NCBI GenBank assembly: GCA_017425245.1
Contig: JAFOOX010000062.1
Coordinates: forward strand, 1 to 62,307
Length of the DNA: 62,307 nt
Origin: Gammaproteobacteria bacterium
GTDB taxonomy: Bacteria; Pseudomonadota; Gammaproteobacteria; Enterobacterales; Neiellaceae
Reading direction: 5' to 3'
Below the pieces are notes generated by a model. That model was not told where the DNA came from. It ran no database searches and was given only the letters and a program-made list of their open reading frames with translations. Within the stretch, counting starts at the first letter, position 1. Each line of letters begins with the position of its first letter. A program made the position numbers and the translations under genes. Shown here piece after piece: positions 1,858 to 62,307 of this stretch.

Positions 1858-4835
1858 CAGACGGCCTCCTGCGATGCACCAGCGGGGACCGGCGAGAACA
1901 TAACGTAGTCAAGGACGCAGGCAAGCTTCTCTTTGGTTTCCTCAAGTTCACGTACGGGTCTGGATTGGCTCACAATGCCAGCACCCGCCTGGAGCCAGCT
2001 TTCGCCGTTGTGCTGATAGATAGAGCGCAGAATGAGTGCAGCATCCATCGCCCCTTGCCAATCCACTATCAGCACACATCCGCTGTACCAGCCTCTGGCC
2101 GTGCTTTCAAAACGATTGATCGCCTCGATACCCGCCAGTTTTGGAATGCCGGATGCGGTGACCGCCGGGAACAGCGCCTCAAAGGCATCCCAGGCAGTAC
2201 GGCCGTCGCGCAGGCGGCCATTCACTCGAGAGGCAAGATGCTGCACAGAGCCGCGACGCAGCACCTGCATGAACTCGCTGACGTCTATGTCCCGACACAC
2301 CTTGGCCACTTCGTCACAGGCCAGCTTGACCGAGAAGGCATGCTCGGCCACCTCCTTGGCGTCGTTGAGCAGTTCTGTCCGCAGGCGCTCCTCCTCCTCC
2401 CGTGATTCCCCCAAGGCGCGGGTCCCCGCCAAGGGGTTGGTGCTGACCCGGCCATCGCAGCTCACCTCGACAACCGTCTCCGGACTGAATCCCGCCATTC
2501 GTGACTCGCCGATCTGAACCAGGAAAGATCGGGCAGGCGTATTGCGCGCCCGACCCATGCGATAGGTTTCCAGCAGATCGACACCGGCCGGTAGGGGAAT
2601 GCGGCGCGACAGGATCACCTTCTGGTACTTGCGCGCATTGATCTCGTCCACGGCCGCCTGGACGTTTGCCTTGTAGGTGTCTTCGTCGTGGTTGAGCAAG
2701 GCCAACAGGGCCAACTCGTCTGCCGGAGAGCTGGAGATACTGCCAACCTGCTGCGCCTGTTCAATCAGCGTCGTCAACAGGATCAGCATTTCCGGCTCTA
2801 TTGCACGAAGGCGAGCCCGGCCGTCGCCGATACGGACTTCGAGGGCGGGAATAAACAACTCCATCAGCGGCATGTCGGAAGATGGCGCAGCCAGACCGTG
2901 GAAAATCTGCGAAAGTTCGAAACGCGCCACGCCGTAGGCACGCCACGCCTTAACCGCGATCTCGCCAGTAGCCTCGCTAATGGCATCGATCAGTCGAGGC
3001 CTGCGGAATATCTTGCTCGCGGCGCCCTGAGTCAGCTCGACCTGTTCGGCATCAACGCGCAGTGTGGCAACTCTACCCAATCCAATGGACCATTCGCCCG
3101 GTTGTTCGTAGAGGGCGTAATCCACCGCGATCCCCGAGGCGGCCAAAGCTGTAAGAATGCCAATGGGCGGCCCCTTTACCTGCATCTCGCGTTCAACATA
3201 AGTAACTGGATTGGCCGCTGGGGGGGTGTCGGCAGCGGCTGAGTGTTTCTGAGCGAGCGCCACAAGCCGCTGCTTGTCGATCTTGCCGACGGTGGTCAGT
3301 GGCCAGGCGTCAACTTTGAGCAGCTGATCTGGCAGCTTGTAGTGCGGCAGGCCTGCGTCGCGCAGAAAGTTGTGAATTTCAGCCAGGGAGGGGGGCTTTT
3401 CACCGGCGATGATGACTGCGCATGTTCTCTCACCCAATCTTTCGTCGGGCACGGCAACCACGGCACAACCCTCAACGTCGGCATGAAACAGCAGTGCATC
3501 CTCAATCTCGGCGGCAGCAATCTTCTCGCCAGCGCGATTGATCTGTTCCTTGATCCGTCCACGAACCACCAGGTTGCCATCAGCGGTCAGCTGCACCAGG
3601 TCTCCCGACTGGTAGAACCCGTCGGTCGTGAAACTGCAAGCATTTTGCGCAGGAGCCCGATAATAGCCGCGAATGGTATACGGGCCTCGTACCTGAAGCT
3701 CGCCAACTTGTCCTGCGGCCACTGGCCGGCCGTTAGGCCCCACGATCCGAAGCTCGTCATCCGGGCACAACGGACGCCCTTGGGTGTTGAGCACCACGGC
3801 CTCTGGATCGTCCAGACGCGTGTAACAGAGCAGCCCCTCGGCCATGCCGAAGACCTGTTGGATCTGGCAACCCAGGCTGGGTGTGATCTGCCGGGCCAGA
3901 TCCGGCTCCAGCTTGGCGCCACCCACCTGCAGCAGCTGCAGGCTGGATAGGTCGCTGGTATCCCATTTCCGCGCTTCCAACCAAAGCTTGACCAATGGGG
4001 GAACAAGGGCGGTATGGGTGACACGCTCCTGGACGATCAGTGGGAAAGCCTCATCGACACTGGGCGTTTGGGCCATCACCACGCGCCCTCCAACGCCGAA
4101 CGTACCAAGAATACCAGGGCAGGCCAGCGCAAAATTGTGGGCAACCGGCAAGGCTGCCAGGTAGACAGAGTCCCGGGAGAGGCCACAGAGGCGGGCCGAT
4201 TCGGTGGCGTTGTAGAGGTAGTCTGTGTGCCTGCGCGGGATCAGTTTCGGCGTGCCGGTGGTGCCCCCGGATAGCAGGAGCAGGGCGGTATCGGTATGCG
4301 CAGAAGGAGAGAAGGTGCGGGGAGAGTCGTCCACTTGATGCAGGCCCAGCCATGGCCCCGGCTCTCCGTCCACGAGAACGTTGCTGATGGACGGCGCGTA
4401 ACTCCGGGCGCGCGCGGCCAGGTCAAGGTAGTCAAATCCAAGGAAGGAGCGCGGAACTATATAAGTGCTAGGCTCTGCCAGTTGGCACAGCTCCAGAATG
4501 TCTTTCTCGCGATGGGCTGGCATCGCCATGATGGGGATTGCCCCAATGCGAAATAGGGCAAACATGCATGTGACGAACGTTTCGCTGTTCGGCAGCTGCA
4601 TCAGCACCCTGTCACCCCTGACAATGCCGAGCCGGTCAAGCCCGGCGGCCAGGCGATCCACCTTCAGATCGAGTTCACGATAGGTAAGGCGAGAGCTGCC
4701 GTCGATCAGGGCGGGCGCCTGTCCGAAGGTGTCCGCAAGGCTGGCGAGCCACTGTCCCAATGTCTGGCGCTTCCAGTAGCCTGAACTCTCGTAGTGCTGC
4801 TCAAGCGCAATAGCTTCGTAACAACAGTTTTCCAT
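1857..4835 (-). CDS. Salicyl-AMP ligase fused to salicylate synthase
   Basis: One 992-residue chain joining two steps that are separate proteins in the yersiniabactin (YbtE, YbtS) and mycobactin (MbtA, MbtI) pathways. Residues about 1-540 are an aryl-acid AMP ligase of the EntE/DhbE/YbtE family: YWKRQTLGQWL at the N-terminus, SGGTTGTPK (A3 loop), and VGKIDK near its end with the A10 lysine. Residues about 555-985 are a chorismate-utilising enzyme. The motifs NPLAGTRALG, TASGIPK, GWYSG and WLQAGAGI fit salicylate synthases (MbtI, Irp9) better than EntC-type isochorismate synthases. It would turn chorismate into salicylate, adenylate it and load the carrier domain of the next gene. ATG 4835 has AGGAG at five bases; an in-frame GTG at 4841 sits inside that ribosome site and is less likely. 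Salicylate as product is inferred from motifs. Confidence 0.88.
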   Translation of the reverse strand: MENCCYEAIALEQHYESSGYWKRQTLGQWLASLADTFGQAPALIDGSSRLTYRELDLKVDRLAAGLDRLGIVRGDRVLMQLPNSETFVTCMFALFRIGAIPIMAMPAHREKDILELCQLAEPSTYIVPRSFLGFDYLDLAARARSYAPSISNVLVDGEPGPWLGLHQVDDSPRTFSPSAHTDTALLLLSGGTTGTPKLIPRRHTDYLYNATESARLCGLSRDSVYLAALPVAHNFALACPGILGTFGVGGRVVMAQTPSVDEAFPLIVQERVTHTALVPPLVKLWLEARKWDTSDLSSLQLLQVGGAKLEPDLARQITPSLGCQIQQVFGMAEGLLCYTRLDDPEAVVLNTQGRPLCPDDELRIVGPNGRPVAAGQVGELQVRGPYTIRGYYRAPAQNACSFTTDGFYQSGDLVQLTADGNLVVRGRIKEQINRAGEKIAAAEIEDALLFHADVEGCAVVAVPDERLGERTCAVIIAGEKPPSLAEIHNFLRDAGLPHYKLPDQLLKVDAWPLTTVGKIDKQRLVALAQKHSAAADTPPAANPVTYVEREMQVKGPPIGILTALAASGIAVDYALYEQPGEWSIGLGRVATLRVDAEQVELTQGAASKIFRRPRLIDAISEATGEIAVKAWRAYGVARFELSQIFHGLAAPSSDMPLMELFIPALEVRIGDGRARLRAIEPEMLILLTTLIEQAQQVGSISSSPADELALLALLNHDEDTYKANVQAAVDEINARKYQKVILSRRIPLPAGVDLLETYRMGRARNTPARSFLVQIGESRMAGFSPETVVEVSCDGRVSTNPLAGTRALGESREEEERLRTELLNDAKEVAEHAFSVKLACDEVAKVCRDIDVSEFMQVLRRGSVQHLASRVNGRLRDGRTAWDAFEALFPAVTASGIPKLAGIEAINRFESTARGWYSGCVLIVDWQGAMDAALILRSIYQHNGESWLQAGAGIVSQSRPVRELEETKEKLACVLDYVMFSPVPAGASQEAV

Positions 4836-5019
4836 CCTCACTCCTCAGGTAGTAATGCGGCTCACCGACAAACCTGACCGAACAGCCTCGCCTTGAAACA
4901 AAGGACTCAGGTTGAGGGGACCAACGCGCACGTGGACGATGGTTTGAGCTTATGAGGAGATGGCTTATCGCTCTGCCCGAAACGGGACGTGGTCACCCGC
5001 AGCGGGTTTATTTGAGGCG

Positions 5020-5047
5020 GGCCGGTCTGCGCCACGGCAAACCGGCC
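5020..5047 (-). terminator. Hairpin behind the TonB receptor gene, possible terminator
   Basis: Eleven-base arms (GGCCGGTTTGC and GCAGACCGGCC with one G-T pair) around a six-base loop lie 44 bases past the receptor stop. No T-run follows, so termination is only a guess. The rest of 4836-5090 shows no gene and no clear Fur-box match. Confidence 0.3.
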
Positions 5048-5090
5048 GATCGCGGCCAGAGGCTTACTCGTCTGCCGCAAATAAAAGGCA

Positions 5091-7292
5091 TCAGAAGCGC
5101 AGGCTCGCCCCTACCCCGAGGGTTGCACCGCGGGCATAGGAAACACCGAAGACCGGCTCTCCTTGCGCATCGGTGCCAAAACGATCTTTGATGGTCATGT
5201 ACTGTTTGTTCAAGAGGTTGTCGCCGAAGAGGTAGAGCTCGCCATCCCCCCAATCGATGCCCAGCCGCGCCGAAATCAGATGTGCCGGGTCAAGCTTGCC
5301 GAAATTGGAGGCATCGGTGTAACGGCTGCCGACATAGTTGTAGGTCAGCATGGCGTTCACGCTGCTTTCTGCCAGCCATTGGCAAAGCCCGAGATCGCCG
5401 ATTGACGACTGGTATCCCAGTGTTGCCATTGCCTTCCACAGGGGCACGGTGGGAAGTCGGTTGCCGCTGCGCAGCCCACTCTGCAGCGATGCCACTTGCG
5501 CCGAAACATGCCGCAGCTCGCTGTAGGTATAGGCCACACCCGTTTCCATCCACCAGTTCCTGTTAGCACGATAACTGGCATCCAGTTCAAAACCTGCCGA
5601 TCGAGCATCCAGATTGAGGTTTCTTCCCGTGAAGTTCTCGTAATCCCAGCTCTGCATCTGCTCTTTGCGCATGTCATTGAAGAACAGTGCCCCATTGACC
5701 AGCAATGAATGGTCGAGCCAGGTGGAACGCCCCCCGAGCTCATAGCTCATGATGGTCGAAGAGTCGTATGGCGACCGTGCCACACCGCTCCACATCAAGG
5801 CGTTGTCCAATCCGTATCCGCCGCTTTTGTAACCCCTCGAAGCGCTGGCATAGGCCATCAGCCCGTTTGTCCAGTGATGGGTCAGGGCGGTTCGACCGGT
5901 CAGGAAGCGGTAGTGTCTGGATCCCTCTTCCTGGAAAAACGGTATGGCGCCTGGCGCGTCATTGCTTCGGTACTCCGAATGAAAATCTTTGGCTTCATGC
6001 GTTGCTCGCGCCCCGATCGTGAGCACCAGGCCATCATTCAGGGGCACGCTGCCCTCACCGAACAATGCCTGCCCGGTCGTTTTGAGGGCATAGTCGATAC
6101 TGCCGCTGGCTGAAGGGGCGAAGTACCACATCTCGCTGGTCCTGTCCCGATCGGCCCGATCCTGATAGAACGCCATCCCCGCCAGCCAGGCGGTTTCTGC
6201 TCCTGGTTCGGAGACCAGCCTGAACTCCTGCGTCAACCGGGAGTCGCGCTTCCGCCAGTCAATGAAATTGGTTTGCGGATCAAGGAATTGCTCAGGAGGC
6301 AAGCCGCTGAAATCGCTGGCGATCATCGCATCCGGAAAGTTATAGCTGTTGCGGTCGTTCAGGCGTGCGTAACTCGTCTGTGCTGTGAGGGTCGCTGTAC
6401 TGAAGTCATACTCCAGGCGCGAATTGAATGCGTACATGCGGATGTCGTCGACCGTCTGGTTCTGGGCTGCTGTTTTCGCCTCTCCCGGCCGGTACGCAAT
6501 GTAAGCAGTAGGAGCGCTATCGGTGCTTTCTCCCTGCACGCTCAGAAGCCATCGAACCCCGGAGGATGGTGTGAACAACACTGACCCACGCGCGGCCCAG
6601 GTTTGCTCCTCTCCCAAATCGCGTCCAGCGATGTTGTTGATGTAGCCGTCAGCCTCTGAGCGCCGGATCGCCAAGCGGCCGGCAAGAGATCCCGGAACCA
6701 GCGCGCCATTGACGATGGCCTCGGCACGGAAGATGCCATCTGTCCCCACCTCTCCGCGCCCGGATCCCTCGAACACCTCGCTCGGTTGCTCGGGCACCAG
6801 GTTGATAGCTCCCCCCGAGGTGTTGCGCCCGAAGAGGGTGTTCTGAGGCCCTTTCATCACCTCCATCCGTTCGAGATCCAGATAGGGGGAAAACGAAGCC
6901 CCGATCGGCATGGGTGCGCCATCGACGAAGGTCAATACAGAGCTGTCATCGGGGCTCAGCGGCGAGAGAATGGGGCCAACGCCACGCAGGACGATAAAGG
7001 CATTGGAGCGGTCACCGAAGGTACCAACGCTGGCGCCCGCCACATCGCGCAAGGCCGCCGCGCCATCCAGCATTCGCTTGCGTTCCAGATCGTCACCCGT
7101 CTCCACATGCACCGAGCCGGGAATGTCGCTGATCTTCTCCTCACGCTTGCGTGCCGTTACGGTGATTGTCTCCCAAACGACGATTTCATCGTCCTTGGCA
7201 ACCACAGTGGCGCCAACGGGGGAGCTGTTTACCAGCGTACTGCCGAGGGAGATGATCAGAAGCGGGAGAGAGATACATCGTCGTTTGCTCAT
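5091..7292 (-). CDS. TonB-dependent siderophore receptor (FyuA-like), first copy
   Basis: Outer-membrane gated barrel of about 733 residues for a ferric siderophore. A signal peptide (MSKRRCISLPLLIISLGS...) is followed by a candidate TonB box near EIVVWETITVTA. The plug domain has GPQNTLFGRNTSGGAINLV, the barrel has ASRGYKSGGYG, and the chain ends in phenylalanine (GASLRF) as barrel proteins do. These blocks resemble the yersiniabactin receptor FyuA. It is encoded between the ligase/synthase gene and the YbtPQ-like ABC pair on the same strand. ATG 7292 fits the signal peptide; a TTG at 7304 would add four residues. No canonical Fur box was found in 7293-7426, although iron control would be expected. 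A second, related receptor lies at 15080-17266. Confidence 0.9.
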   Translation of the reverse strand: MSKRRCISLPLLIISLGSTLVNSSPVGATVVAKDDEIVVWETITVTARKREEKISDIPGSVHVETGDDLERKRMLDGAAALRDVAGASVGTFGDRSNAFIVLRGVGPILSPLSPDDSSVLTFVDGAPMPIGASFSPYLDLERMEVMKGPQNTLFGRNTSGGAINLVPEQPSEVFEGSGRGEVGTDGIFRAEAIVNGALVPGSLAGRLAIRRSEADGYINNIAGRDLGEEQTWAARGSVLFTPSSGVRWLLSVQGESTDSAPTAYIAYRPGEAKTAAQNQTVDDIRMYAFNSRLEYDFSTATLTAQTSYARLNDRNSYNFPDAMIASDFSGLPPEQFLDPQTNFIDWRKRDSRLTQEFRLVSEPGAETAWLAGMAFYQDRADRDRTSEMWYFAPSASGSIDYALKTTGQALFGEGSVPLNDGLVLTIGARATHEAKDFHSEYRSNDAPGAIPFFQEEGSRHYRFLTGRTALTHHWTNGLMAYASASRGYKSGGYGLDNALMWSGVARSPYDSSTIMSYELGGRSTWLDHSLLVNGALFFNDMRKEQMQSWDYENFTGRNLNLDARSAGFELDASYRANRNWWMETGVAYTYSELRHVSAQVASLQSGLRSGNRLPTVPLWKAMATLGYQSSIGDLGLCQWLAESSVNAMLTYNYVGSRYTDASNFGKLDPAHLISARLGIDWGDGELYLFGDNLLNKQYMTIKDRFGTDAQGEPVFGVSYARGATLGVGASLRF

Positions 7293-53357: not shown

Positions 53358-53840
53358 ATGAATTCTCCTCTCTCCCTGTCGCTGCCTGCACTGCTGGCTC
53401 GTCCGTTGACACGGTTGCCTGCTGCTGTTCGTCATCAGCCACTGGCGCATCTGCTGCAGTGGGCATTGGCCCGACCGTTGGCCGAGGGTGATTTTGATTT
53501 TCTGGACGGACAGCAGCTGGCGCTGGAGATCAGCGATCTGCAGATCACGCTGGTGCTGGGTCTTGCCAACGGCAAGCTGGCGGTCAGTGATGATGACGGC
53601 ACAGCTGTGACCCGGCTCAAAGGACGCAGCGCTGCTTTGCTGCGTTTGGTGACGCGGGTTGACGATGCCGATACTCTCTTCTTCCAGCGCGAGCTGCTGT
53701 TGTCGGGCAATACCGAGATTGGTCTGGCGCTAAAAAATGCGCTGGACGGCTTGGAACATGAGCGCTTGCCGCTGCCGTTGCCGCAGCTGCTAAAGGCACT
53801 CCGTGCCGCAGTTCGAACGTTTAACCAAAAGCGTGCTTAG
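53358..53840 (+). CDS. ubiT: Ubiquinone anaerobic biosynthesis accessory factor UbiT (SCP2 domain)
   Basis: A 160-residue lipid-binding accessory factor of oxygen-independent ubiquinone synthesis. The SCP2-like domain covers about residues 35-145: FDFLDGQQLALEISDLQITL, then RLKGRSAALLRLVTRVDDAD and LFFQRELLLSGNTEIGLALK. The last of these is the usual UbiT ending block. ATG 53358 has only a weak ribosome site. It is divergent from ubiUV, the common arrangement. Confidence 0.92.
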   Translation: MNSPLSLSLPALLARPLTRLPAAVRHQPLAHLLQWALARPLAEGDFDFLDGQQLALEISDLQITLVLGLANGKLAVSDDDGTAVTRLKGRSAALLRLVTRVDDADTLFFQRELLLSGNTEIGLALKNALDGLEHERLPLPLPQLLKALRAAVRTFNQKRA

Positions 53841-53934
53841 GTCACATTTTTTGGCCGAACTTGGCGGGTTTTTTTGTGGTCTAATGCGCCAGTCCGAGCC
53901 GTTTCCCGGTCTCTTTTTCAGAGGAGCAATCTTG

Positions 53935-56082
53935 ATGCAGTGGCAGAAAACCCTTCTTGCGTTGGCCCTAGCCGGCGTGCTGGCCGCCTGTGGTGGCGGT
54001 GGCGGTGGTGATGACGGCGGTGGCGGTGGTGATGACGGCGGTGGCGGTGGTGATGACGGCGGTGGTGGCTACACCTATACCCCCTACGCCTGCGATGCCA
54101 ACTTGTATCAAGACAAAGCCAACGACCTGCGCATCTATCAGGTGATGGTCGCCGCTTTTATCGATGGCGACAGCAACGCCGATTACAACAGCGCTTATGG
54201 CCCTAGCCAGCATCGTGGCGACATTCAGGGGGTGATCGACAGCCTCGATTACATTGAGTCGCTCGGTGCAAATGCCATCTGGATGACCCCGGTTTTTGAA
54301 AGCGTCCCCATGAGCGGCCAGGACCAGTGGGCGGACCGCCTAGATGGTACTGGCTACTTCGCTAGCAACTATTTCAACGTTGATCCCAACTTTGGCAGCG
54401 TGGAAAAGCTCAAAGAGCTGGTCGATGAAGCTCACGCTCGTGGTATCTATGTGTTCCTCGACGGCGTCTTTGGCCACTTCAAAAATAATGCCCATGACTA
54501 TCCGTCTCCCAACGGCCTAACCGTTTCCACGACTGGCGTCGCTCAGGGCGCCAGCGGTCGTGAAGCTGTCTATCCTCAGGATCTGGCGTTCTTCAAGGAA
54601 GTAGCCACCTACTGGATCCGCGAAGCCAAGATCGATGGCTGGCGTCTGGATCAGGCCTATCAGGTACCGGTTGGTGCTTGGGGTGAAATTCGTAAGGCGG
54701 TTGAAGAAGCCTCCGCCGAGGTCAGCTACCAGTTCAAGGGCCAACCGGCCAATCCGCTTGGCTATATGGTGGGTGAGATATGGGATAGCACCGCAGAGAT
54801 TGCTGATAAAGGCTACGGTACGGCTGAGATGCCGGGGCTGTGCTCCAACTTCGATTTCCCGATGCGTTACAACATCGTCCAGACCTTGGCTGTTGAAGAA
54901 AGTGGCAACGGCAATCGACCAGCTACCAATCTGGCCTCAGGTTATGGCACCCACTTGGCCTATCCGGCTCATGCCGTACCCAATGGTTTCTTGACCAATC
55001 ACGATTTGGTGCGCTTGGGTGATCTGCTGCAACGCGGCAACATTGCCCAGCCTGATCAAGAGGGTTACTGGCTGCGCCACAAGGCCGCTTACAGCTTCTT
55101 GGCTGCCTACACTGGCCCCATCACCATGTACTACGGTGATGAAATTGGCGATGAAATGCCGGGGTTTGCCGCGCGTAACAACCCCTGCTCTGGTGATGGT
55201 GCCGGCGGTAACTGGTGTGATGACAACGTTGCCCGTACCCCAGGTAAAGTTGAAGGCTTGGCCGCAGTAACGGGCGGAGCGCCTTTTGTGGCCAATACGC
55301 GGCAGGCGGATCTGCGCAATTACATCACTGATCTTATGGAACTGCGTGCCAGCCATCCGGCTCTGTCTGCTGGTGTGCGCACCAATATCCCGATGGCGAC
55401 GGATGTCGCTTCGTCGCTGTATGTCGACCACAAGGCCGAAGGCGATGATGTGGTGCTTTACGTGCTCAACACCTCGACCTCAGCTAAAACTCTGGCGGTC
55501 AGTGGCGAGCTGATTGGCAGCAGTGGCAATCTGGTCGACCTGTTGACCAATACCACCCATACCATTTCTGGTGGTAACTACAGCATCAGCGTTCCGGCAC
55601 TGACAGCGTTGTTCCTCGATGTGGTTAGCCCGACTGCTGAAGGGCCGCAGGTGGGTGGCAATGGCGGTTCGCTGACTGGTGACGGTCCGTTGGCCGACTG
55701 CGATGCTGCCACTGTGGCTGGCGATGGCCCGCTGGGTAAGGCGATGTATATCCGCGGATCTTACACGGGCGGCGATGGCTTTTCGGCCACACCGGCTAAT
55801 CGCAAGTTTGCCTACAAAGGTGACAACATCTATCAGGTGGTGGTCAATGAGCCTGCGGTAACTTCCTATGCCTTCAAGTTTGCCTCGCCAGACTGGAGCA
55901 GCGAGTTTGCGGTAGCAGGAGCTGCTGCGGTCAACATCGGTAGTGAGCAGACTATGGCTGTTGCTCCGGGTAATGGCACCGAGTCGCAGATTGTGATCCC
56001 TGAAGCGGGTGATTATGTGTTCAGCTTCGAGATCAACGCTACGCTCGATGGCGGCTCTTTGATGGTCAGCAAGTGCGAATAA
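53935..56082 (+). CDS. Lipoprotein alpha-amylase, glycoside hydrolase family 13
   Basis: A 715-residue starch- or maltodextrin-cleaving enzyme. A lipoprotein signal ends at LAAC (Cys19), followed by a Gly/Asp linker made of a repeated GGGGGDD unit. The GH13 barrel shows region I FLDGVFGH, region II GWRLDQAY (nucleophile Asp), region III GEIWD (acid/base Glu) and region IV FLTNHD (second Asp), all catalytic residues present. A C-terminal beta domain (about 585-715, MYIRGSYTGGDGF...) resembles carbohydrate-binding or starch-side domains. ATG 53935 has AGAGGAG eight bases upstream. It is probably displayed on the outer membrane, feeding sugars to the cell. Confidence 0.93.
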   Translation: MQWQKTLLALALAGVLAACGGGGGGDDGGGGGDDGGGGGDDGGGGYTYTPYACDANLYQDKANDLRIYQVMVAAFIDGDSNADYNSAYGPSQHRGDIQGVIDSLDYIESLGANAIWMTPVFESVPMSGQDQWADRLDGTGYFASNYFNVDPNFGSVEKLKELVDEAHARGIYVFLDGVFGHFKNNAHDYPSPNGLTVSTTGVAQGASGREAVYPQDLAFFKEVATYWIREAKIDGWRLDQAYQVPVGAWGEIRKAVEEASAEVSYQFKGQPANPLGYMVGEIWDSTAEIADKGYGTAEMPGLCSNFDFPMRYNIVQTLAVEESGNGNRPATNLASGYGTHLAYPAHAVPNGFLTNHDLVRLGDLLQRGNIAQPDQEGYWLRHKAAYSFLAAYTGPITMYYGDEIGDEMPGFAARNNPCSGDGAGGNWCDDNVARTPGKVEGLAAVTGGAPFVANTRQADLRNYITDLMELRASHPALSAGVRTNIPMATDVASSLYVDHKAEGDDVVLYVLNTSTSAKTLAVSGELIGSSGNLVDLLTNTTHTISGGNYSISVPALTALFLDVVSPTAEGPQVGGNGGSLTGDGPLADCDAATVAGDGPLGKAMYIRGSYTGGDGFSATPANRKFAYKGDNIYQVVVNEPAVTSYAFKFASPDWSSEFAVAGAAAVNIGSEQTMAVAPGNGTESQIVIPEAGDYVFSFEINATLDGGSLMVSKCE
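53995..54057 (+). repeat. Three 21-bp in-frame tandem repeats (Gly/Asp linker)
   Basis: The unit ggcggtggcggtggtgatgac encodes GGGGGDD and occurs three times head to tail, ending at 54015, 54036 and 54057. Because the unit is a multiple of three, gain or loss would change only the length of the linker between the lipid anchor and the catalytic domain. Confidence 0.9.
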
Positions 56083-58778: not shown

Positions 58779-58995
58779 TTTCAGCCGTTGGGGTGGGGAA
58801 GACGCCGCTTGCGGCGACGCTTCGCATCTGCAGCACCTAGCCAACTTACCCCTTGATCCTGCGCACTTTTACATCAGTCCCGGCTTGCACGAACTTTGGG
58901 CCGTTTTGTAGACTGCGGCCTGGAATTTGTAACAGCGTATTGGGCCATGGTCGGCTGTCGTAGGGACACCGACCCCAATGGAATCGGGGGTTTGT

Positions 58996-61659
58996 ATGTC
59001 GGTTCTGCTCAAGGAGGGGCTGTTGCGCCTTTCCGCTTCTGTGTGCCTGTCAGCCGGGTTGCTGGTCGGTTGTGGCGGAGGTGGGGGCGGGGATGATGGC
59101 CCCGGTGTTGATCAGGTGCGGGTGACTGCAACGGTCACCGGCGGAGGCCAGGTTGAAGTCCAATCAGCCGAGGTTGATAAAGGCCTGACCGGCGCCATTC
59201 GGCTTGTTCCCAACAGCGGTTACCGTTTTGAATCCATTACGGGGTGCGGTGGCGACCTGATTGTTAATGTCTACACTACCCCGCCCTTGCAGGCCGACTG
59301 CCATATCGATGTGCGCTTTGTGGCCGATGATGGCACCGGCAGCTTTATGGCCATTAGTGCCTACCCCAGCCAGAACGGCCGGGTGGTGCCCGAAATTCTC
59401 AACGCACCGGTGCAGGGCGAAGCGGTGTTCACTGCCCAGCCGGCCAGCGGCCATCACCTGAGCGCGGTGTCGGGCTGTAATGCCGTGTATAGCGGCAACA
59501 GCATCTATGCCGACAACAGTTCACCGAGCTGCGAAGTCAGCGCCATCTTTGCGGCAGGCCCAGCGCCCACCACCACCTACCGGGTGTCGACAGCGGTGCA
59601 AGACGGGGTCACCTTTATCCCTGCCGAATTTGATGTACTGGCTGGCCAGGTTGCCCCGTACCAGATTCAGGTAGCCGAAGGTTACGATTTCAATGGCGTC
59701 AGCGGCTGCTATGCCGACGCCCAGCCACAGGCCAAGTCGCTGGCAGCGGCTGCGGCCGCGTCTAGCTATAGTGGTCGCACCCCTCCCATCACCGCCGACT
59801 GCACCCTGACCGCCGATGTGCGCCAGCGTGATTACCTGGTGAATGTGCTGAGCAGTGGTGGCGGTAGTGTAGAGCCCTCCAGTGCCCGGGTGCTGCATGG
59901 CCAGAGTCACAGCTTCACCGTGACACCAAACCCCGGTTGGGCCGTGGCCTCGGGCAGCGGCTGTGGCGGCAGCCTCAGCGGCAGTGTTTACACTACCGGC
60001 CCGGTGACAGCTGATTGCAGTATCGATTTCACCTACGTCCCCACCTCGCTGTTGGTGACCACCAGTGTCAGCGGCGAGGGCAGCATCACCCCGGCTGAGA
60101 ACTGGGTGCTGCCAGGTGAGAGCGCTAACTTTGCGCTGTCGCCGGGCGAGGGCCAGAGCATCGCCAGCGTCAGCGGTTGCGGCGGCAGCCTCAGCGGCAA
60201 CACCTACAGCACCGGCGCGGTGACAGGGGCCTGTACCATCACGGCCAGCTTTGCCCCCACGGTCTACACCCTGACTGCCAATGGTGATAGCGGCGGCAGC
60301 ATCAGCCCCGGCAGCCTGGCGGTGGTGCATGGCCAGAACGGCCAGTTTACGGTAACGCCAGATGAGGGCTATGCCATCAGCAGCGTCACCGGTTGCAGTG
60401 GCAGCTTGAGCGGTAATACCTACCTCACCGGCGCCATCACCAGCGCATGCTCGGTCTTTGCTCAGTTTAGCCAGCTGCATTACACCATCAGCGCCAATGC
60501 CGGCGAAGGCGGCAGCATTTACCCCAGCCTGCAGTCGGTTACCTATGGCCAGGCTACGCAGTTCACCATCACCCCCTCGCCGGCGCACCGTATTGCAGAG
60601 GTGACAGGTTGTGATGGCACCCTGGAGGGCGACCAGTATCAGATCGCAGCGGTCACGGCTGACTGCAGCCTGTCGGTGAGCTTTGAACTGACGCTGAAAA
60701 GCCCGGATAACCTGCAGGTCACCCCCGGTGATGGCGAGCTGACGTTGAGCTGGGATGGTGTGGCCAACGCTGAGGCTTATGCGGTTTATGCCGCCAAAGA
60801 GCAGGGGGTTAATGCTGACAACTATCACCTGCTGGATGGCGGCCGCCGCGAGCAGGCCACCACCACCAGCATCACCTTGCAGGGGCTGGACAACGACAGC
60901 ACCTATTACCTGGCCGTGGCCGCCATCGCCGGCGGTTACCAAGGGGCACTCAGCCTGCCCGTCTCTGCTGCCCCCGTGGCCGCCCCTGTCATCGCCACCG
61001 GCAAACTCAACGACACCGGCATTACCGTTTGCAGCGATGCCGGCCAGAATGGCCTGAGCTGCCCGGTGGCTGGTTTTGCCGGGCAGGATGCCGAGCATGG
61101 GCGCGATGTGACCCATAACGACGACAGCGATGGCCATGCTGGGTTCAGCTTTACCAAGCTGGATAGCAGCGGCAACCCGCTGCCTGCCAGCGCCAGCAAC
61201 TGGAGCTGCGTGAAAGACAACGTCACCGGGTTGATCTGGGAGATCAAAACCACCGACGGCGGCCTGCGCGATATGAACCACACATATACTTGGTACAACA
61301 GCAACCCGGCCACCAATGGCGGTGATGCAGGCCACGAAAGTGGCGGCTACTGCTACAACGCCGGCCGTTGTGATACCGAGAAGTTTGTGGCCGATGTTAA
61401 CGCTGCCGGCCTGTGCGGCGCCAGCGACTGGCGCCTGCCAACCATCGAGGAGCTGCAATCGATCGTCGATTACAGCCGCACTGGCCCAGCCATCGACACC
61501 GCCTGGTTCCCCAATACGTCAACGGGCTGGATGTGGTCTTCGTCGCCGGGTGCCGACTACGCGGACCGCGCGTGGCTCCTGAATGTTCACTCCGGTCACG
61601 TCTACAACTTCAAGCGCCACTTCGACTTTCAGGTTCGTTTGGTGCGCGGCGGACAGTGA
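58996..61659 (+). CDS. DGR-diversified surface lipoprotein (bacterial repeats, Fn3, DUF1566)
   Basis: An 887-residue lipoprotein. The signal ends at LLVGC (Cys26) and a CGGGGGGDDG linker follows. Residues about 35-565 are roughly seven tandem beta-repeats of some 75 residues, each with a GGS(I/V)xPxxxxVxHGQ opening and SVTGCGGSLSGNTY-type middle, like divergent InlB-type bacterial repeats; paired cysteines suggest one disulfide per unit. An Fn3 domain (about 568-660) precedes a DUF1566 domain (735-887) of C-type-lectin-like fold: NVTGLIWEIKT, GASDWRLPTIEELQSIVDYS, GWMWSSS. The last 40 residues contain the variable repeat. It is the diversified ligand-binding protein of the retroelement, held away from the membrane by a repeat stalk. 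ATG 58996 has GGGGG five bases upstream. Confidence 0.93.
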   Translation: MSVLLKEGLLRLSASVCLSAGLLVGCGGGGGGDDGPGVDQVRVTATVTGGGQVEVQSAEVDKGLTGAIRLVPNSGYRFESITGCGGDLIVNVYTTPPLQADCHIDVRFVADDGTGSFMAISAYPSQNGRVVPEILNAPVQGEAVFTAQPASGHHLSAVSGCNAVYSGNSIYADNSSPSCEVSAIFAAGPAPTTTYRVSTAVQDGVTFIPAEFDVLAGQVAPYQIQVAEGYDFNGVSGCYADAQPQAKSLAAAAAASSYSGRTPPITADCTLTADVRQRDYLVNVLSSGGGSVEPSSARVLHGQSHSFTVTPNPGWAVASGSGCGGSLSGSVYTTGPVTADCSIDFTYVPTSLLVTTSVSGEGSITPAENWVLPGESANFALSPGEGQSIASVSGCGGSLSGNTYSTGAVTGACTITASFAPTVYTLTANGDSGGSISPGSLAVVHGQNGQFTVTPDEGYAISSVTGCSGSLSGNTYLTGAITSACSVFAQFSQLHYTISANAGEGGSIYPSLQSVTYGQATQFTITPSPAHRIAEVTGCDGTLEGDQYQIAAVTADCSLSVSFELTLKSPDNLQVTPGDGELTLSWDGVANAEAYAVYAAKEQGVNADNYHLLDGGRREQATTTSITLQGLDNDSTYYLAVAAIAGGYQGALSLPVSAAPVAAPVIATGKLNDTGITVCSDAGQNGLSCPVAGFAGQDAEHGRDVTHNDDSDGHAGFSFTKLDSSGNPLPASASNWSCVKDNVTGLIWEIKTTDGGLRDMNHTYTWYNSNPATNGGDAGHESGGYCYNAGRCDTEKFVADVNAAGLCGASDWRLPTIEELQSIVDYSRTGPAIDTAWFPNTSTGWMWSSSPGADYADRAWLLNVHSGHVYNFKRHFDFQVRLVRGGQ
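61535..61626 (+). repeat. DGR variable repeat (VR)
   Basis: Aligns without gaps to 62216-62307 at an offset of 681 bases. Of 92 positions, 67 are identical. Twenty-four of the 25 differences are at adenines of the template copy; the exception is a template C read as G (61614). The repeat may continue to the stop at 61659, but the template is cut off. It encodes the ligand-facing loop of the DUF1566 domain. A GGTTAT...ATAACC inverted repeat (61662-61685) lies just past the gene, where some DGRs have a homing hairpin. Confidence 0.95.
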
Positions 61660-61687
61660 TAGGTTATTGGTGATAAGGCATAACCAG

Positions 61688-62077
61688 ATGAGCAATAGTG
61701 CGCCAAGTAACACACAGCAGATGCCCATTTGGCGCGATGCTAGCCGGTTGCTGGTAGCGGTTGAAGACGCGGTACGCCACTTTCCCCGCTACCACAAATA
61801 CACCCTTTGCCATGAAATGCGGCAGCAAGCAATGCAGGTCTGCCGCTTGATTAGTCGGGCAAGCCGCTCAGTTGAACAACGAGCGAGTTATGTTGGGCAA
61901 TTAGCTGAGGCCATGGATGACTTGAAGTTGCAGATACAGTTGGCAAAGCGCCTACGTGTCTTTCGTCACTTTGCAGAGTTTGAGGCCTTGGCTACCCTCG
62001 CGGTGGCCGTGGGCAAACAGTGTGGTGGGTGGAAGCGGCACATGCAGGCAACGGCGGGGGCCAGAACCGATGCCTAA
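61688..62077 (+). CDS. avd: DGR accessory variability determinant (Avd)
   Basis: A 129-residue four-helix-bundle protein that binds the DGR reverse transcriptase and template RNA and is required for mutagenic homing. Key blocks are DASRLLVAVEDAVRHFPRYH, KYTLCHEMRQQAMQVCRLI, and a Lys/Arg-rich face (LKLQIQLAKRLRVFRHFAEF). The FPRYHKYTL motif is characteristic of Avd and related S23-like bundles. ATG 61688 follows the variable gene by 28 bases; longer readings start inside that gene. It lies between VR and TR, a common order. Confidence 0.92.
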   Translation: MSNSAPSNTQQMPIWRDASRLLVAVEDAVRHFPRYHKYTLCHEMRQQAMQVCRLISRASRSVEQRASYVGQLAEAMDDLKLQIQLAKRLRVFRHFAEFEALATLAVAVGKQCGGWKRHMQATAGARTDA

Positions 62078-62115
62078 CGGGGCGCGGGTGTGCCATATCA
62101 CTGTGCGCCGACGGC

Positions 62116-62138
62116 GCCAGCCACTTATGGTGGCTGGC
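62116..62138 (+). other. Hairpin between avd and the template repeat
   Basis: Nine-base arms GCCAGCCAC and GTGGCTGGC around TTATG, 80 bases before the template repeat. It may be part of the structured leader of the template RNA or end the avd message; no T-run follows. Confidence 0.45.
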
Positions 62139-62215
62139 ATGATTAGGCTGCTGAGTCCTACCTTTGTTGGATGGATTTGGTGGTGAGAAGTTCGTCGGTT
62201 AATCGTGGTGTTGTG

Positions 62216-62307
62216 GGTCTTCGTCGCCGAATGCCAACAACACGAACAACGCGTGGAACCTGAATGTTAACAACGGTAACGTCAACAACAACAACAACAA
62301 CAACAAA
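62216..62307 (+). repeat. DGR template repeat (TR), cut by the right edge
   Basis: Invariant template copied by the reverse transcriptase with errors at adenine. In the reading frame of the variable gene it is almost entirely AAC and AAT codons broken by fixed GCC, GCG TGG, CTG, GTT, GGT and GTC codons, the classic AAY design that can change to many residues but never to a stop. Thirty-eight adenines are visible in 92 bases, ending in a run of AAC triplets. The end of the template, its homing marker and the reverse transcriptase gene lie beyond the window. Confidence 0.95.

Follow-up and report, generated by a model that had tools for sequence, protein, structure and literature searches.

A two-target diversity-generating retroelement and a covarying RNA leader that may prime and guide copying from its template repeat

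The window analysed here is contig C46 (JAFOOX010000062.1; 62,307 nt) of a gammaproteobacterium of the Neiellaceae, belonging to a 74-contig genome that is 89% complete. It carries a diversity-generating retroelement (DGR) that runs off its right end and appears to continue on a second contig, C50. Across both contigs the order is a stalked lipoprotein holding the first variable repeat (VR1), avd, an RNA leader, the template repeat (TR), the reverse transcriptase (RT) and a short protein holding the second variable repeat (VR2). On the basis of sequence comparisons, we propose that this DGR has two targets and that the covarying leader 5' of the TR likely primes and guides adenine-mutagenic copying into both, a reading to which we assign a probability of roughly 0.6. 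The features in the window are as follows; IMH denotes the initiation of mutagenic homing sequence at the end of a VR and IMH* its counterpart in the TR.

58996..61659, + strand: target of VR1, a predicted lipoprotein of 887 amino acids (lipobox LVGC, Cys 26; C-terminal Lcl_C domain)
61535..61660, + strand: VR1, with the IMH ACAGTGAT at 61653-61660
61662..61685, + strand: 6-bp inverted repeat behind VR1, a possible but weak homing hairpin
61688..62077, + strand: avd-like gene of 129 amino acids (PHROG Avd, E 1.3e-20)
62095..62208, + strand: structured RNA leader with a predicted three-way junction (P1/P2/P3), directly 5' of the TR
62095..62104, + strand: candidate guide or primer segment ATATCACTGT, the unpaired 5' end of the leader
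62216..62307, + strand: 5' part of the TR; the rest is on C50 (L001 2338 to ~2310, minus strand, past the shared 23 bases)
62264..62307, + strand: first codons of the RT gene, with the ATG inside the TR and the frame +1 to the VR frame; continues at L001 805-2361, minus strand

A covarying RNA leader precedes the template repeat

Relatives were collected from named genomes by an RT-alignment scan, of which the best 80 of more than 561 were kept, together with one viral contig, and TR/VR pairs were found beside the RT in 67/81 of these loci. The leader follows a shared pattern, in which CACUGUGCG is succeeded by P1, by the hairpins P2 and P3, and by the P1 partner right before the TR. A model of this pattern (R1), built from nine seeds with the window left out, was searched against 82 sources with the window included, and gave 34 matches at E 1, all of them at most 58 nt 5' of a TR. 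The leader of the window scored E 6.4e-7 with R1, for which it was not a seed, and E 5e-13 with a second model (R2). With this second model there were 47 matches, of which 44 lay at an identified TR, two in loci with no identified TR (L073 and L080) and one elsewhere (L059, E 0.16). An unfiltered search of 18 further loci found the leader at the TR in eight and two chance matches in L113; overall, a leader stands at the TR in 52/82 sources. One leader match, on the strand opposite the RT in L090, led to a TR that had been missed in the first TR scan. Moreover, a scan of 249 genomes with stricter filters gave three matches at E 0.01: that of the window, a second whose coordinates and score are those of L081, and a third in genome G120. 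In the latter, the leader is followed by a TR, a VR (differing at 22/44 adenines and two other positions) and an RT, a previously unseen DGR.

Two-sided changes occur in 21/21 leader pairs (277 cells, and 76 when shuffled), with a covariation score of 0.76 compared with 0.21 shuffled and at most 0.12 slid, although the 47-row alignment behind these counts was fitted to the structure and includes one likely chance row. For P1 we also counted pairing without the fitted alignment, and found it in 26/28 loci versus 66/756 off-diagonal combinations (mean 7.2/8 pairs versus 3.7 permuted). Folding energies point in the same direction. The stretch 62078-62216 folds better than its shuffles (z -4.0, 0/200), and the 5' flank of the same TR in a 180-nt window does so more weakly than this 139-nt stretch (z -1.83). 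Eight of 13 folded leader stretches have z <= -2.0, and across 56 loci folding is stronger in the TR 5' flank (mean z -1.52) than in windows inside the RT (p 4e-6).

Rfam 15 contains no match to the leader up to E 1 for the window or up to E 5 for five relatives. The literature searched describes neither a structured RNA upstream of the TR nor pairing with the IMH, which falls short of showing absence from print. Within the searches made, a leader RNA with complementarity to both repeat ends is undescribed.

Perfect hairpins of at least 7 bp were also considered as a mark of the TR 5' flank. They occur in 8/67 5' flanks, 6/67 3' flanks and 2/67 windows inside the RT, a signal that was too weak and was replaced by the junction model.

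The leader is complementary to template and variable repeat ends

The unpaired 5' end of the leader carries two overlapping complementarities. In the window, bases 3-8 of the segment are complementary to the TR end AGTGAT on C50 and bases 6-10 to the VR ends ACAGT. The pairing with the TR end changes in step between loci: the element and TR end read AUCACU/AGUGAU here, AAACACU/AGUGUUU in L056 and L064, GAACACU/AGUGUUC in L058, GGAACU/AGUUCC in L052, CAUCAUCUU/AAGAUGAUG in L072 and UAUUCACG/CGUGAAUA in L065. Bases 3-8 match the TR end of their own locus exactly in 33/49 loci, representing 16/22 distinct patterns (permuted mean 3.2, maximum 13), and the VR end in 12/49. Bases 6-10 show the reverse, with exact matches to the VR end of their own locus in 41/49 loci and 9/11 patterns (permuted mean 11.3, maximum 22), and to the TR end in 4/49. 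The two pairings are set apart mainly at position 9, which is mismatched to the TR in 32/35 loci (in 24 as G with G) and paired in 52/63 VR ends, while position 10 pairs with the TR in 34/35 loci; these counts include VR1 of the window shifted by two bases, and the ends of L085 and one VR end of L057 are misaligned in them.

Several observations weigh against the proposed role of the leader, in addition to the fitted alignment mentioned above. In 30/82 sources no leader was found at an identified TR, and some of these TRs look normal. The single folds of L039, L041, L042, L048 and L058 are not better than shuffles. An exact match is missing for the TR end in 16/49 loci and for the VR end in 8/49, and a more permissive score barely separates the fit of the segment to TR ends (6.60) from that to VR ends (6.55). 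Among three held-out loci, L164 fits fully, L090 at the TR only and L101 not at all.

Proposed mechanism and alternative explanations

We suggest that, as the transcript folds, the leader segment NNNCACUGU would anneal to the TR end and loop out the template. The junction P1-P3 may take the part of the BPP-1 3' spacer in holding RT and Avd. Reverse transcription would then start at the leader segment, enter the TR and err at adenines; judging from strand direction, the 3' direction of the annealed segment would point into the TR, as a primer needs. Position 9, matched to the VR and mismatched to the TR, may make the primed strand fit the VR, and the difference between IMH and IMH* would follow from this. 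The products would replace VR1 in the tip of the lipoprotein and VR2 in the short protein. It is about an even bet that the same holds for a large branch of DGRs, which would then be RNA-guided, the leader priming at the TR end and pairing with the target IMH to choose the site, with one mismatch separating template from target.

The start of copying and the discrimination of IMH from IMH* have been worked out mainly in one phage. A conserved RNA that covaries, in its first ten bases, with both ends makes the question of start and target directly testable in DGRs from several phyla. If the proposal is true, such a DGR would be redirected by altering about ten leader bases and the IMH in concert, and DGR-based directed evolution would gain a short guide in the leader.

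Many intergenic structured RNAs are regulators, and the leader could likewise regulate its operon through RT translation or transcript processing, the TR-end pairing serving regulation rather than priming or target choice. The RT start lies inside the TR, so leader pairing with the TR end could indeed control the RT. However, the leaders of L090 and L101 precede TRs on the strand opposite the RT, indicating that the leader accompanies the TR rather than the RT gene. Moreover, regulation needs no complementarity to the VR ends, which also covaries (the 41/49 loci above). We consider this explanation unlikely.

Another alternative is priming as in BPP-1, where an internal adenine of the spacer 3' of the TR primes and a motif in the 3' end of avd mRNA stops reverse transcription (PMC12875486). 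The priming RNA would here lie 3' of the TR, inside the RT coding sequence, and the 5' leader would act as a template-end stop or a stabiliser whose pairing only helps folding. Compared with windows inside the RT, the TR 3' flank too shows somewhat stronger folding (p 0.004), so that a spacer-like RNA may exist within the RT gene; this folding speaks for such 3' priming and adds to the observations against a priming leader. However, the covarying complementarity to IMH and IMH* resides in the leader and not in the 3' flank (the 3' side was examined for folding energy alone), and the strand direction of the leader suits a primer. Priming from the 3' side thus seems somewhat improbable, and priming and guiding by the 5' leader is the reading that we prefer.

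Comparison with known systems

BPP-1 (mtd, avd, TR, brt) and the present locus share the RT, Avd, changes between TR and VR at TR adenines, a VR at the C-terminus of a protein with a C-type lectin fold, and the difference between IMH and IMH*. In BPP-1, however, the TR directly adjoins avd and has the structured RNA on its 3' side (PMC12875486), whereas here the RNA lies 5' and the TR enters the RT gene; BPP-1 has one target, and here there are two. The 144-nt spacer between TR and brt in BPP-1 folds better than shuffles (z -2.9), and the leader model found nothing real in BPP-1 (best 7.6 bits). The spacer contains AGGTGGTCA, a complement of the VR end, but not of the TR end, that finishes in an adenine at spacer position 56; the priming adenine of BPP-1 is reportedly also number 56. 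Since two further 9-base matches occur in the spacer, this VR-end complement is a lead only.

The overlap of TR and RT frame leaves no structured TR-RT spacer of the BPP-1 type in our locus. No more than 100 nt separate the TR end from the RT core in 56/67 of the surveyed loci, which leaves little room for a 3' spacer, and 25/67 have no start codon available other than those inside or upstream of the TR. DGRs with a TR overlapping an end of the RT open reading frame (cassette group 3 of DiGReF) and DGRs with several VRs have been described, and our locus shares both the overlap and the several VRs per TR (PMC3521204). The sections of that account on overlap and multiple VRs mention neither a 5' structured RNA nor IMH pairing (PMC3521204). 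DUF1566 is frequent among the target domains of DGRs (PMC6642488), and lipoprotein targets are described for T. denticola and, from a cited title, for Legionella (PMC4891356). In contrast to these targets, one TR here serves a long lipoprotein and a short Lcl_C protein that flank the RT.

The short unpaired segment of the leader also recalls other RT systems with structured RNAs, in that it may pair with a target or adjoin a priming site. Examples are group II introns, with pairing of exon- and intron-binding sites (EBS-IBS), and retrons, with a 5' msr RNA and priming. The likeness is an analogy only, and Rfam gives the leader no match.

The repeats, the reverse transcriptase and the contig join

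In its proteins and repeats the locus is a DGR of known kind. The original prediction had described a variable repeat, avd and an adenine-rich template in order behind a DUF1566 lipoprotein and had read them as a DGR. All of these were found, and the DGR reading holds with an RT present on C50. The second target, the RT start within the TR and the RNA leader were not part of the original prediction. We also reproduced its counts of differences between TR and VR1, which are 24/38 template adenines and 1/54 other bases over the ungapped stretch 62216-62307 (Fisher p 2.4e-11); in this comparison none of the 14 VR1 adenines faces a different TR base. The single other difference (62295) sits in an AAC run and vanishes with a 3-nt gap. 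In gapped alignments the joined TR differs from VR1 at 25/43 adenines and 1/80 other bases (p 1.6e-13), and from VR2 at 18/43 adenines and 1/80 others (p 5e-9). The non-adenine difference is shared by VR1 and VR2; it is the G (TR) to C (VR) change at the IMH, where IMH and IMH* read GGACAGTGAT and GGAGAGTGAT.

Relative to the joined TR, the AAC run has 3 extra nt in VR1 and 6 in VR2. The VRs thus differ in length by 3 nt, and no single template can have the length of both. In all, 18/113 TR-VR pairs needed gapped alignments; 12 have gaps inside the TR, every one a multiple of three, and the remaining six have a gap at the alignment edge or one that is not a multiple of three. Slippage in multiples of three within AAC repeats has already been posited (PMC12875486), and we claim no novelty for codon-sized length differences. 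A GC-rich hairpin of 7-10 bp behind the VR has been described for DGRs (PMC3240598); the inverted repeat behind VR1 has 6 bp, and no hairpin was found behind VR2.

The RT on C50 matches PF00078 above its cut-off, as the sole such match of the genome, and the PHROG RT family at E 1e-96. No DGR-specific RT model in the libraries used scored above its cut-off, and the retron St85 RT model reached 48.6 versus a cut-off of 235. Matches of the RT in PADLOC were set aside as generic RT matches. For avd, the NCBIfam Avd (NF033474) and Pfam bAvd matches are below the curated cut-offs. Apart from the ATG at 62264, there is no in-frame ATG, GTG or TTG before the conserved RT start.

C46 ends inside the TR, within the AAC run, and its last 23 bases equal the first 23 of C50, reversed; past these bases C50 holds the TR end, the open RT frame and the VR2 protein. 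The join may be a coincidence of assembly, or the cassette a decayed and inactive remnant. The overlap of the contigs consists of just 23 bases of AAC repeat, a dependence that counts against the two-contig locus, and the number of codons between GTC and CAG is 8 in the assembled TR, 9 in VR1 and 10 in VR2; the genome, moreover, is incomplete, as given above. However, on C50 the TR proceeds as far as IMH* and shows a single non-adenine difference, the frame begun by the C46 ATG extends into the open RT frame on C50, the C46 leader fits the TR end found on C50, and relatives show the same order on single contigs. Coincidence or decay is therefore very improbable.

A contig of 71,924 bases is likewise recorded as carrying the VR2 protein (P0121). 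This contig is probably from another assembly of the genome and may join C46 and C50.

Target proteins and gene pairs without a retroelement

The stalk that the original prediction had seen beneath the DUF1566 domain is present: the VR1 lipoprotein has seven two-cysteine repeats (GC...C, residues 83-558), fn3 and a C-terminal Lcl_C, and an alternative in-frame upstream ATG is possible at 58978. VR2 lies in a short Lcl_C protein that begins 3 bases past the RT stop on C50 and has, by eye, a signal-peptide-like start. In both targets the VR is at the C-terminus of a predicted C-type lectin fold. The predicted models of both Lcl_C domains have the C-terminal domain of Legionella Lcl as best structural match, and that of the long protein additionally matches TvpA and Mtd.

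The genome contains five Lcl_C matches. On contig C12 a lipoprotein of 963 amino acids and an Lcl_C protein of 175 amino acids are encoded 51 nt apart (L009:1633-2160 and 2212-5103), with no avd, TR or RT between the genes. The leader is also absent there, the genome having a single leader match. A long lipoprotein with a short Lcl_C partner thus exists once in this genome without a DGR, and the earlier suggestion that the stalk is a distinct display design of the DGR does not stand. Repeat-rich predicted lipoproteins lie on either side of the C12 pair.

In a tree of Lcl_C domains with the VR left out (131 columns, 141 rows, many open forks), the long domains of C46 and C12 are sisters (100/97) and adjoin the DGR targets of L040 (Thiodictyon) and L048 (Chromatiales) (100/84). 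The two short domains are likewise sisters (100/89) and adjoin the DGR targets of L039 (Rhodoferax) and L078 (Gallionella) (99/90), and long and short domains are separate from each other. Taken alone, the tree suggests that the C12 pair lost its DGR cassette or was copied without it. The idea of a fossil VR at C12 was dropped; the NNY-codon test is uninformative, as true VRs too fail to stand out in it.

Similar pairs are found in other genomes. Lcl_C matches occur in 41 of 119 genomes of the order, and we scanned 22 regions of other genomes, mostly chosen for neighbouring Lcl_C matches. A long Lcl_C protein (at least 474 amino acids) is directly followed by a short one (170-221 amino acids) in 14/22 regions, and 13/14 of these long proteins have a lipobox-like motif. 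RT searches of the pair-bearing genomes found none within 100 kb of the pairs. The DGR is therefore lodged within a gene pair that is also found on its own, and we infer that the long and short proteins may work together. That a single template serves two lectin-type proteins, one anchored and the other separate and exported, points to a receptor made of two parts. In genome G003, two Lcl_C domains and other domains occur in one long open frame (L138:1-3408).

Further observations on the relatives and the window

Among the 67 loci with TR/VR pairs, 27 have VRs flanking the RT, 36 have them only upstream and four only downstream. In seven of the other 14 loci the TR is on the strand opposite the RT (L079, L083, L090, L093, L101, L105 and L112). 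Two loci (L050:6100-6234 and L107:4260-4396) are unlike most in having the TR about 750-800 nt before the RT core, and the leader is still at the TR. In L042:6710-9271 (Desulfobulbales), the RT and a downstream VR target share one open frame of 853 amino acids, possibly a fusion. Two RT proteins (P0085 and P0096) have an N-terminus that is the translated TR in the VR frame, hence their Lcl_C label beside the RT domain. Within the window, a further lipoprotein is predicted at 53803-56082 and looks, by eye, like a glycoside hydrolase of the alpha-amylase type.

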